Shown here: piece after piece, positions 7,981 to 11,164 of the stretch | How the letters are laid out: each line of letters starts with the position of its first letter | Numbering within the stretch: position 1 is the stretch's first letter | From: a virus | Length of the DNA: 36,819 nucleotides | Strand: one strand, 5' to 3' | IMG/VR virus record: IMGVR_UViG_3300047316_000182 | Span: 1 to 36,819 of that record | Notes under the pieces: generated by a model | Seen by the model: the letters and a program-made list of their open reading frames with translations, nothing else | What the model was told of the DNA's origin: nothing | The model's database searches: none | Position numbers and translations under genes: made by a program

Positions 7981-9990
7981 ATGAAAACCGACCTTCAACA
8001 GTTACTCGGCAAACGCCAGGAACGAACCTTCACGATTGAACCGGACCGCGCGAAACGCGCCGCAACAATCAACGAGGAAGCGCGCACGGTCGAGATTGCG
8101 TTCGCATCACAAACACCAATCGACCGGTGGTATGGAACCGAGATTCTGCAATGCGATCCGGCCTCGGTGATGCTCGACCGCTTAAACAACGGTGGCGCGT
8201 TGCTACTCAACCACGACACCGGCGCGCAAGTTGGTGTAGTGGTCGCCGGCACCGCACGCGCCGACAGTGATGGCGTGTGTCGCGCCACGGTCAAGTTCTC
8301 GCAACGCCAGGCCGGACTCGACGAGTTCCAGGATGTGAAAGACGGCATCCGCACGCAAATCTCGGTCGGCTATCTGGTCCACGAATACATCTCCAACGAG
8401 GACACCGAAACCTATACAGCAACGCGGTGGGAACCGCTCGAAGTGTCAACCGTTGCAATCGCGGCCGACGTGGTTGGATCGGGAGTTGGGCGCACACTCG
8501 ATGCGGGCCGTTCTGATGGACCACCAGCACCAACACCACCAATTGCGATGCGCGACAAAGGAGCGACACCAATGGAAGAAAATGAGAATCAGAACGGCAA
8601 TCCGGCCGGCACCAACGGCCAGAACGGCAACCGTGCGGCCGAGCTCGGCGCCGGCGTGGCAGTGGCAACGGCCGCGGCCACGGTGAGTGCTTTGATGCTG
8701 GCCACCGAGATCATGGACCTGGCACGCGTGATCGACGCACCAGGCGAAACGCTGGCGCAAGAAGTGGCGCGCGACGCCATCGCCAGCGGCAACACGTTGG
8801 CCGAATTTCGCCAGCGAGTTTTTGAGAAGCGGCGCGAACGTGAGGCCGCGGCCAAAACGCCGGTGGTACAGCAAGGCAACGTGATCGAGTTGACCGAACG
8901 CGAGAAGAACCAATTCTCGGTGCGCAATGCCATCCTGGCCGACGTCAACATGCGGATGGGCCTCGGCAATCAAAACTGTTTTGAATTGGAAATCTCGGCC
9001 GAGATCGAGAAGCGACTAGGCGCGATTCATTCCGGATATCAACGCCACGGTGGCGTGTTGATTCCAACCGGCCAGGCACTTCGCGGTGGCCGTGAATTTC
9101 TCGAACGCCGCACCGCGATGCAGTTGCGCGCCGGTCTCGCCGCTAAGACCACCAACGCCGGCAAAGAATTGGTGTTCACGGAATATGGATCGTTCATCGA
9201 GATGCTACGCAATCGCGCGATGGTGATCGCACTCGGCGCCACCGTGTTGCCAGGTCTGCAAGGCAACGTAGGATTTCCACGCCAGATCGGCGCCGGCACG
9301 TTGGTGTGGGGAGTTGAGAATCCTGGCGTCGACGTGGCCGAATCAAATCTTACGTTGGACCAGGTGGTGCTCTCGCCAAAGACGGCACAATCGACCACCA
9401 GTTATTCGCGCCAGTTGTTAGCGCAATCGGCGATTGACGTCGACGGTCTGGTGATGGATGACCTGGCCGCAATCAACGCACTCGGCATCGACAAAGCGGC
9501 CATCGACGGCGTGGCGCCGGCACCGACCGGCATCTACACCGCGAACGGCGTCAACTCGGTGGCGTTCGGTGGCACGGTCACGTTTGATCACCTGGTCCAA
9601 ATGGAAACCGAGGTGGCCGCGGATAATGCCGACGTCGGCACGATGGCCTATCTGGCCACGCCGTCGGCACGTGGCAAGGCGAAGGTGACACCGGAATTAA
9701 TCGGCACCGGATTCTCGCAACCAATCTGGCGTGATGGCACGGTCAATGGCTATCGCGCCGAGGTCACAAATCAGCTTGCCAAAAATCTCGGCGTCGGCAC
9801 GAACGAGCACGGCATCGTGTTTGGTGTCTGGTCGCAACTGATGATCGGCGAGTGGGGCGTGTTGGAGATCATCACCGATCCGTATGCCAAGAAAAAGCAA
9901 GGCATGATCGAGTTGACCAGTTTTCTATTGGCCGACGTGCAATTGCGCCACGGCGAATCGTTCTGCAAAGGCACCGGCCTCATTCCCTAA
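7981..9990 (+). CDS. Prohead protease (S78)-HK97 major capsid protein fusion
   Basis: 669 residues in one frame. Residues 1-190 are a serine prohead protease with catalytic-type motifs NHDT (His about residue 76) and QISVGY (Ser about 128). Residues 190-300 form an acidic, Asn/Gly-rich then helical region (ENENQNGNPAGTNGQNGN...EKRREREAAA) resembling a scaffolding delta domain. From VIELTEREKN (about 301) to the end is an HK97-fold capsid protein (NPGVDVAES, SRQLLAQS, DPYAKKKQGM). In family terms the protease frees the capsid domain and destroys the scaffold. I prefer ATG 7981 to upstream in-frame starts, which run through the repeat element. Confidence 0.9.
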   Translation: MKTDLQQLLGKRQERTFTIEPDRAKRAATINEEARTVEIAFASQTPIDRWYGTEILQCDPASVMLDRLNNGGALLLNHDTGAQVGVVVAGTARADSDGVCRATVKFSQRQAGLDEFQDVKDGIRTQISVGYLVHEYISNEDTETYTATRWEPLEVSTVAIAADVVGSGVGRTLDAGRSDGPPAPTPPIAMRDKGATPMEENENQNGNPAGTNGQNGNRAAELGAGVAVATAAATVSALMLATEIMDLARVIDAPGETLAQEVARDAIASGNTLAEFRQRVFEKRREREAAAKTPVVQQGNVIELTEREKNQFSVRNAILADVNMRMGLGNQNCFELEISAEIEKRLGAIHSGYQRHGGVLIPTGQALRGGREFLERRTAMQLRAGLAAKTTNAGKELVFTEYGSFIEMLRNRAMVIALGATVLPGLQGNVGFPRQIGAGTLVWGVENPGVDVAESNLTLDQVVLSPKTAQSTTSYSRQLLAQSAIDVDGLVMDDLAAINALGIDKAAIDGVAPAPTGIYTANGVNSVAFGGTVTFDHLVQMETEVAADNADVGTMAYLATPSARGKAKVTPELIGTGFSQPIWRDGTVNGYRAEVTNQLAKNLGVGTNEHGIVFGVWSQLMIGEWGVLEIITDPYAKKKQGMIELTSFLLADVQLRHGESFCKGTGLIP

Positions 9991-10020
9991 ACAAACTCTC
10001 GCGCCGGCCGCGTGTGTCTT

Positions 10021-10042
10021 TTCCTAAAAGCGCGCGGTCGGC
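10021..10042 (+). repeat. Possible degenerate third copy of the intercistronic element
   Basis: CCTAAAAGCGCGCGG (10024-10038) resembles TCTAACAGGCGCGCG of the copies at 5779 and 7884, and again lies in a gap before a head gene. The match is short and imperfect. The gap also has CTCGC/GCGAG arms that could pair across it. Confidence 0.25.
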
Positions 10043-10078
10043 GAGTTGGACCAACAAGCAACATCCGGAGGGCAACCG

Positions 10079-11164
10079 GTGATCGAACTTACGGCGCGCG
10101 AAAATAAACGCTATTCAATCCGCAACGCCATCATGGTCGACGTGGCGCGCCGCATGGGTGATCGGCGTGCTAACAGTTTCGAACTCGAAATCTCCACGCA
10201 ACTCGAACGCGAGCTCGGCGCCAGTTATGAACACCACGGTGGGGTGCTGGTGCCAACCGGCATCACGTTGGACCATACGCGCGCCGGCCTCGACACTAAG
10301 ACACCGACCAAAGGCCAGGAATTAACTTTCGATGAATTCGGCACGTTCATCGATCTGTTGCGGCCGCAAAGTTGGGTGATCGAACTCGGCGCCACGGTGC
10401 TCACCGGTTTGAAAGGTGACGTAGGATTTCCACGCGCCACGGCCGGCGCCGTCGTGACCTGGCAAGTTGAGAATCCTGGCGTCGACGTGGCCGAATCCGA
10501 TCTGGCACTTGACCAGGTTTGGCTCACGCCACGCACCGCACAATCCACCACCATGTTCTCGCGCCAGTTGTTAGCGCAATCCACGCCGTCGGTCGATAAG
10601 ATCGTGGCGACCGACCTGGCCAAAGCACACGCCGCGGCACTCGACCGTGCGGCACTGCAAGGCGTCGCACCGGCACCGGTCGGCCTGTACAACCAACTCA
10701 TCCAGACCGCGGATTTTGGCGCCGCGTTCAACTACAGCGGCGCCGTGCATATGGAATTTTTGCTCAACCAGGCCAACGCCAACGGCAATCCGATGGCACT
10801 CGCATACCTGGCCGATCCGCAATGGGCAATGGACTACAAGATCACGCCAATCGCGGCCACGATTGGGATGCCGGCCTGGTCCGACGGCAAGGTGAACGGC
10901 ATTCGCGCCGAGGTCTCGAAGAACATGCCGGCGCCAGGATGCATTCTCGGCAACTGGCCGGAAGTTTTGATCGGCGATTGGGGTGTGTTGGAGATCATCA
11001 CCGATCCGTATGCGAAGAAAAAGCAAGGCATGGTTGAGGTAACAAGCTTTGTGTTGACCGACGTGGAATTTCGGCATCTGCAATCGTTTGTGAAGGCCGG
11101 CAATTTCGGCACGTTGCCAGCGACGGCCGCGGCCGAGGCCAGTGCGACAAAGGGGAAAAAATAA
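10079..11164 (+). CDS. Second major capsid protein (HK97 fold), stand-alone paralogue
   Basis: I chose GTG 10079 because GGAGGG lies six bases upstream; an in-frame TTG at 10046 is much weaker. The 361-residue product begins IELTARENKRYSIRNAI, aligning with VIELTEREKNQFSVRNAI inside the fusion protein upstream. It therefore starts about where the mature fusion-derived capsid chain should start and lacks protease and delta domain. Shared blocks include ENPGVDVAES, TAQSTT, SRQLLAQS, GVAPAP and ITDPYAKKKQGM, with long stretches conserved also in DNA, so it arose by duplication. It has a Lys/Ala-rich tail. Confidence 0.88.
   Translation: MIELTARENKRYSIRNAIMVDVARRMGDRRANSFELEISTQLERELGASYEHHGGVLVPTGITLDHTRAGLDTKTPTKGQELTFDEFGTFIDLLRPQSWVIELGATVLTGLKGDVGFPRATAGAVVTWQVENPGVDVAESDLALDQVWLTPRTAQSTTMFSRQLLAQSTPSVDKIVATDLAKAHAAALDRAALQGVAPAPVGLYNQLIQTADFGAAFNYSGAVHMEFLLNQANANGNPMALAYLADPQWAMDYKITPIAATIGMPAWSDGKVNGIRAEVSKNMPAPGCILGNWPEVLIGDWGVLEIITDPYAKKKQGMVEVTSFVLTDVEFRHLQSFVKAGNFGTLPATAAAEASATKGKK

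Follow-up and report, generated by a model that had tools for sequence, protein, structure and literature searches.

Organization of the capsid locus

The window, a stretch of 36,819 nucleotides covering positions 1 to 36,819 of IMG/VR virus record IMGVR_UViG_3300047316_000182, has a head module of the lambda type, in which a GpA terminase and a portal gene are followed by two adjacent capsid genes on the + strand. The first of these, gene 1 (7981..9990), runs from ATG 7981 to a stop codon that ends at 9990 and encodes a protein of 669 residues, comprising an S78 prohead protease (approximately residues 1-171), a delta region (approximately 198-385) and an HK97-fold capsid domain (approximately 385-669). 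Pfam Peptidase_S78 matches residues 74-162 with 25.4 bits (cut-off 21), Phage_capsid matches residues 405-665 (E = 8e-30), and PHROG 617 spans nearly the whole protein (residues 28-666, E = 4e-114). Gene 1 is a member of this known fusion family, which joins S78 and Phage_capsid in one reading frame, and these matches bear out a previous sequence-only reading of the locus, according to which protease, scaffold and capsid are encoded in one chain. In the protease part, H78, S128 and E154 are invariant in 12 relatives.

In HK97 the S78-family protease, gp4, is encoded by a separate gene and there is one capsid protein, gp5, which carries a cleavable N-terminal scaffold; the window has a fused protease and two capsid genes. 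Phages with the PHROG 617 fusion include Murka and other Foxunavirus, VP882, ep3, PPpW-3, phiHAP-1 and R4C. As in these phages, gene 1 has the S78 protease, delta region and HK97 capsid in frame and is placed after the portal gene; unlike their records, the window has a second capsid gene. The Murka fusion has been described as a single propeptide of 684 residues (PMC10892653).

The second gene, cap2 (10079..11164, + strand), encodes a 361-residue HK97-fold capsid paralogue with a short N-terminal module (residues 1-62), a hinge (63-89), the capsid fold (90-343) and a C-terminal tail. Its mechanically called open reading frame begins at TTG 10046, but the true start is almost certainly GTG 10079, because a GGAGGG motif lies upstream (10067..10072, + strand) with a predicted SD pairing energy of -10.0 kcal/mol, and both the GTG and the GGAGGG are kept in every tandem relative. 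This GTG is the exact homologue of fusion codon V301 (VIELT), so that the second gene does begin at the equivalent of VIELTEREKN, as had been noted. Over fusion residues 301-663 the aligned proteins are 50% identical. In Pfam, cap2 matches Phage_capsid (PF05065) only (E = 3e-20), and in PHROGs it matches 617/10; its AlphaFold model has a pTM of 0.74, and the best Foldseek match of this model is the R4C capsid (E = 3e-18), an HK97 fold and the nearest structure for both cap2 and the fusion capsid. By sequence profile and predicted fold, cap2 is an HK97-fold capsid protein. At its residue 152 (window 10532-10534) all four cap2 variants have arginine, and all 38 aligned single-type capsid domains have lysine; this substitution was considered as a cross-link clue and dropped, since R4C has histidine there.

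Between the two genes lies a predicted GC-rich hairpin (10002..10043, + strand) with a 14-bp stem and a conserved pyrimidine loop UCUUUUCCU. It folds in all four tandem variants, among which one base pair differs at both of its positions and others alternate between G-U and G-C; z-scores over the four sequences are modest (-2.1 to -0.5). No counterpart was evident in the short stretches that follow the fusion in three single-capsid relatives (L012, L032 and L035), which were compared as unfolded sequence. One possible role of the hairpin is to tune the product ratio; another is to mark a site of mRNA processing.

A probable internal start in the fusion gene

The SD sequence of the first start of gene 1 is very weak (-2.4 kcal/mol), which agrees with the earlier suggestion that the protease-bearing fusion is supplied in limited dose. 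A candidate internal start (8557..8574, + strand) consists of the SD sequence AAAGGAG at approximately 8557-8563 and an in-frame ATG at 8572, codon 198, with an SD strength of -7.9 kcal/mol. This AAAGGAGCGACACCA-ATG sits between the protease and the first module of the delta region, and initiation here would probably give a protease-free delta-capsid protein of 472 residues.

The case for this start comes from the family, which we divided into 40 clusters at 75% identity. Across the family, an in-frame ATG with a good SD lies roughly 50-105 codons upstream of the VIELT position. The best such ATG has an SD of -5 kcal/mol or lower in 34 of the 40 clusters; this strength is reached by 13% of control ATGs that lie in frame within the capsid part and by 16% of those out of frame (Mann-Whitney p = 3e-16, a value somewhat inflated because the best ATG was chosen from as many as four). 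Clades differ in the peptide encoded across the SD (KGA, QVR, EEV, KEV, MEV and GGN), and shuffling of synonymous codons gives a combined p of 8e-6 for the family; the same shuffle on the window by itself is not significant (0.084), and the argument therefore rests on the family.

The internal SD-ATG is also found in R4C, VP882, ep3, PPpW-3, Persinger, RcCronus and phiHAP-1, is weaker in Alexa and Mica, and is unconvincing in Murka. Among the fusions from our scans, it is weak in L066 and replaced by a good GTG in L065 and L102; no convincing internal SD-ATG was found in L076, L084, L085 and L090, which may use another start or make the full-length fusion alone. Four members (L073:2972-5131, L075:3116-5095, L078:3368-5377 and L091:2834-5167) carry a ClpP-type protease in place of S78 on the same capsid, and their internal SD-ATG sits at the same place; the protease module seems from these sequences to be exchangeable beside a conserved capsid start. 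The capsid part of a further fusion, L043:3167-5194, is 57% identical to that of the window, and its N-terminal 240 residues, a region of protease length, have no Pfam match; this region may be a protease of a third type or an S78 domain that has diverged strongly.

In the lambda C/Nu3 pair, an in-frame internal start in the protease gene gives a protease-free product. Gene 1 likewise has an in-frame internal start with a ribosome-binding site, conserved in relatives. In lambda that product consists of scaffold alone, and the capsid has a gene of its own, whereas the internal product of gene 1 would hold scaffold and capsid together. We found no paper on internal initiation in such fusions, in a search that left most subscription journals outside and is not proof of novelty. 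In all likelihood, given its conservation, the internal start is used. With SD strengths that rise from the full-length start to the internal start and again to cap2, the simplest reading is that gene 1 would yield little protease fusion and more protease-free delta-capsid. Since the internal start probably gives delta-capsid, cap2 would not be needed to dilute the protease.

Delta region, hinge and mature N-terminus

Alignment and AlphaFold models divide the delta region into two modules. Module A (8572..8880, + strand; fusion residues 198-300), which is missing from cap2, is predicted to be helical, with helices at residues 228-290 and low confidence at 292-299. Module B (8881..9075, + strand; residues 301-365) is retained in cap2 and leads into a predicted hinge (9073..9186, + strand; residues 365-402) with pLDDT below 50, a probable maturation cleavage zone. 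In all, cap2 keeps approximately 60 residues of the delta region plus the hinge: its residues 1-59 are predicted with fair confidence as a small helical module, with helices at 6-46 and a strand at 56-59, followed by a disordered hinge at 64-88. The proposal that only one of the two genes carries a delta domain thus stands for module A and fails for module B. In the fusion of L009 (1066-3039), 14 residues of module A are missing relative to near-identical sister contigs, either as a natural deletion variant or through an assembly error.

The start of cap2 had also been taken as the expected mature N-terminus of the capsid protein. R4C (PDB 8gta), the one relative found by sequence whose capsid structure has been solved, argues otherwise. 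Its virion chain comprises residues 362-629 of a 629-residue fused ORF and so begins at the counterpart of G394 in the window fusion, 93 residues past the equivalent of V301; this extent fits a maturation cleavage that removes both the protease and the delta region. The cut could fall somewhat before 394, as upstream residues may be present but disordered in R4C. On the R4C chain start and the predicted hinge, V301 is rejected as the probable mature N-terminus, and from alignment and model it is the boundary between modules A and B.

Origin of cap2 and selection on the two capsid genes

In an ML tree, cap2 forms one clade (support 100/100), with a stem of 0.74 changes per site, inside a 12-row clade of the window's own fusions (100/100). 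In the nearest single-capsid relatives, L012 (whose fusion is 76% identical to that of the window), L032, L033 and L035, the fusion is immediately followed by the gene that comes after cap2 in the window; cap2 was therefore inserted at that spot or, less simply, lost there several times. Tree and synteny rule out an import from a distant phage. On this sequence evidence, cap2 arose locally, when the 3' part of gene 1 was duplicated in tandem, and afterwards changed fast.

Among the four tandem variants, dN/dS is 0.13-0.23 for cap2 and 0.07-0.15 for the fusion capsid. These values indicate that cap2 is under purifying selection, and together with the conserved start they rule out a chance ORF or pseudogene. 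Between the window and L005, dN is 0.239 for cap2 and 0.096 for the fusion capsid, so that cap2 evolves approximately 2.5 times faster; the corresponding protein identities are 70% and 89%.

The two genes also bear the marks of sequence transfer within genomes. Third codon positions favor the within-genome (concerted) pattern over the crossed pattern by 45 to 10, whereas first and second positions favor the orthologous pattern by 121 to 11. Long exact tracts link both genes of one genome (33 bp in the window, 47 and 54 bp in L005 and 53 bp in L023), and such tracts are shorter or absent between genomes. To judge from these patterns, gene 1 and cap2 are still exchanging DNA, and the opposed behavior of the codon positions implies that selection keeps the proteins distinct while their DNA is homogenized.

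Distribution of the tandem arrangement

We scanned IMG/VR, GTDB genomes, 50,697 phage records and 72,556 plasmids. The fusion was found widely, and the tandem second capsid in seven contigs including the window, which represent four sequence variants; the sensitivity of this count is bounded by the seed patterns, and one scan covers the best 80 of 117 loci. Approximately 70 further related contigs have one capsid gene, no tandem second capsid was found elsewhere among the relatives examined, and none of the 77 matching phage records (77 places) has a second capsid gene. Repeating the scan twice with different cap2 sequences as query gave no extra tandem members. When hosts were sought by genome, the cap2 profile had no match, and matches to the fusion profile were limited to two distant relatives, in MAGs of Pyrinomonadaceae and Rhodoferax. 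The two capsid places seen on Pseudomonas plasmids resembled a tandem, but this reading was rejected: in both of the records that we inspected, the matched locus holds a single capsid gene and the second place lies elsewhere in the record. As regards a possible change in capsid size, the tandem contigs (36.8 and 37.3 kb) overlap in length with single-capsid relatives (35.9-41.2 kb), although contigs may be incomplete. Two tandem HK97-fold paralogues are thus as unusual as had been supposed; a second capsid gene beside the fusion is rare, and the arrangement combines known kinds of gene, the protease-capsid fusion and capsid paralogues.

Proposed role of cap2 in the shell

Of the sites at which the fusions are invariant, cap2 departs from them at 57% of those in the A-domain and 26% of those in the remaining core domains of the HK97 fold (odds ratio 3.7, p = 2e-4, with domain limits that we set from the predicted fold). 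The A-domain surrounds the capsomer axis. Several single-capsid relatives have a similar A-domain excess, with odds ratios up to 4.1 (L039), and this control weakens the enrichment as proof of a vertex role. The A-domain rate of cap2 does exceed that of relatives changed to the same degree in the other domains (0.40-0.51), a difference that is no more than suggestive.

The two capsid genes resemble T4 gp23 and gp24 in being HK97-fold paralogues of which the second has a shorter propeptide region; gp24, whose propeptide has 10 residues against 65 in gp23, is thought to derive from a duplication of gp23, and some gp24 bypass mutations lie in the gp23 A-domain (PMC9958956). Like gp24, cap2 is a paralogue of its own phage's major capsid protein (tree support 100/100; 50% identity). 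The T4 proteins are approximately 20% identical and unfused to a protease, while the window's paralogues are 50% identical and one is fused; cap2 matches no T4-type family in Pfam or PHROGs, and is not a member of the gp23/gp24 family. In T4, gp24 forms the pentameric vertices; for cap2 such a position is suggested indirectly, by the A-domain excess.

From the genes, starts, duplication, selection, DNA exchange and internal-start conservation that can be read in the sequence, we infer the behavior of all the proteins as follows. The weakly primed first start of gene 1 would give a little full-length protease-delta-capsid and the conserved internal start at 8572 more protease-free delta-capsid, and both products would build a prohead with built-in scaffold and protease. 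A third species, cap2 with its shorter delta region, would join the same prohead, where the fusion's protease would trim it in the hinge, and would form particular capsomers, most likely the pentameric vertices, working like gp24 beside gp23; the capsid domain of the fusion would stay the bulk shell protein. The parts of this account differ in strength. That cap2 is a functional shell protein is very probable. We favor a capsomer-specific, probably vertex, role because of the A-domain changes and the gp24 parallel, and on sequence and analogy a vertex-type specialization is plausible if tentative. The account as a whole, in which the two products of gene 1 co-assemble with cap2 as a specialized minor shell protein, is our best explanation and is likewise put forward tentatively. 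The R4C shell has T=7 symmetry and 415 copies of one such protein (PMC10276861). R4C-like relatives thus make pentons and hexons from one protein, so that cap2 is an addition, and the fact that single-capsid relatives form pentons without a special protein counts against a vertex role. So does the cap2 SD, the strongest of the three: a vertex protein is needed in approximately 55 copies, for which such a site is unexpected, although its GTG start codon is weaker than an ATG.

That same SD, suggesting more than vertex amounts, is one argument for a mosaic shell in which the short-delta cap2 mixes freely in hexons and pentons, tuning stability or scaffold density. The E-loop, P-domain and N-arm, which make intercapsomer contacts, are well conserved between cap2 and the fusion, and DNA exchange keeps the two genes similar, points that also speak for free mixing. 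The most changed part is nevertheless the A-domain, with its contacts within the capsomer, and the proteins are held apart despite the exchange, which leaves free mixing a serious but doubtful alternative to the specialized role. Less likely again is the division of labor previously proposed, with cap2 as the bulk of the shell and the fusion as a minor supplier of scaffold and protease. The order of SD strengths, strongest on cap2 and weakest on the full-length fusion, agrees with it, but the internal start should already supply protease-free capsid from gene 1, the single-capsid contigs and all matching phage records manage without cap2, and cap2 lacks delta module A. The slower evolution of the fusion capsid, the more conserved copy, is also what is expected of the main shell protein, although this is an argument and not a test. 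Since selection maintains cap2, a mixed shell, which had been considered plausible, is still the best reading.

It is improbable that cap2 is not mainly a virion protein and serves instead as a decoy for capsid-sensing host defences or as an assembly regulator that caps or poisons excess capsid. Host systems that sense viral capsids exist (PMC11312562), and confinement of the fast-evolving cap2 to one small clade would suit such a function, but the full HK97 fold and the conservation of its assembly surfaces under purifying selection speak against it. A recent unselected duplicate heading for loss would fit the narrow distribution and nothing beyond it, and is highly improbable given a cap2 intact in all seven contigs over approximately 30% protein divergence, its low dN/dS and conserved start and SD, and the near-saturation of synonymous sites when the main variants are compared.

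The conserved internal start suggests how fusion phages avoid making one protease per shell subunit, a prediction that is simple to test in cultured phages such as R4C, VP882 and ep3. Together with cap2 it may, as a possibility weaker than the vertex assignment, point to a three-tier capsid programme in two adjacent genes: a little protease-delta-capsid, delta-capsid in bulk, and a short-delta capsid for special capsomers. If this reading is true, the family's internal capsid start seems to have gone unnoticed so far, and the tandem would have arrived at the T4 gp23/gp24 split anew, recently and independently, with copies that still exchange DNA. With a recent duplication and close single-capsid relatives, it would offer a case for how a phage divides shell duties between two proteins, a division otherwise seen as an ancient event, as in T4.
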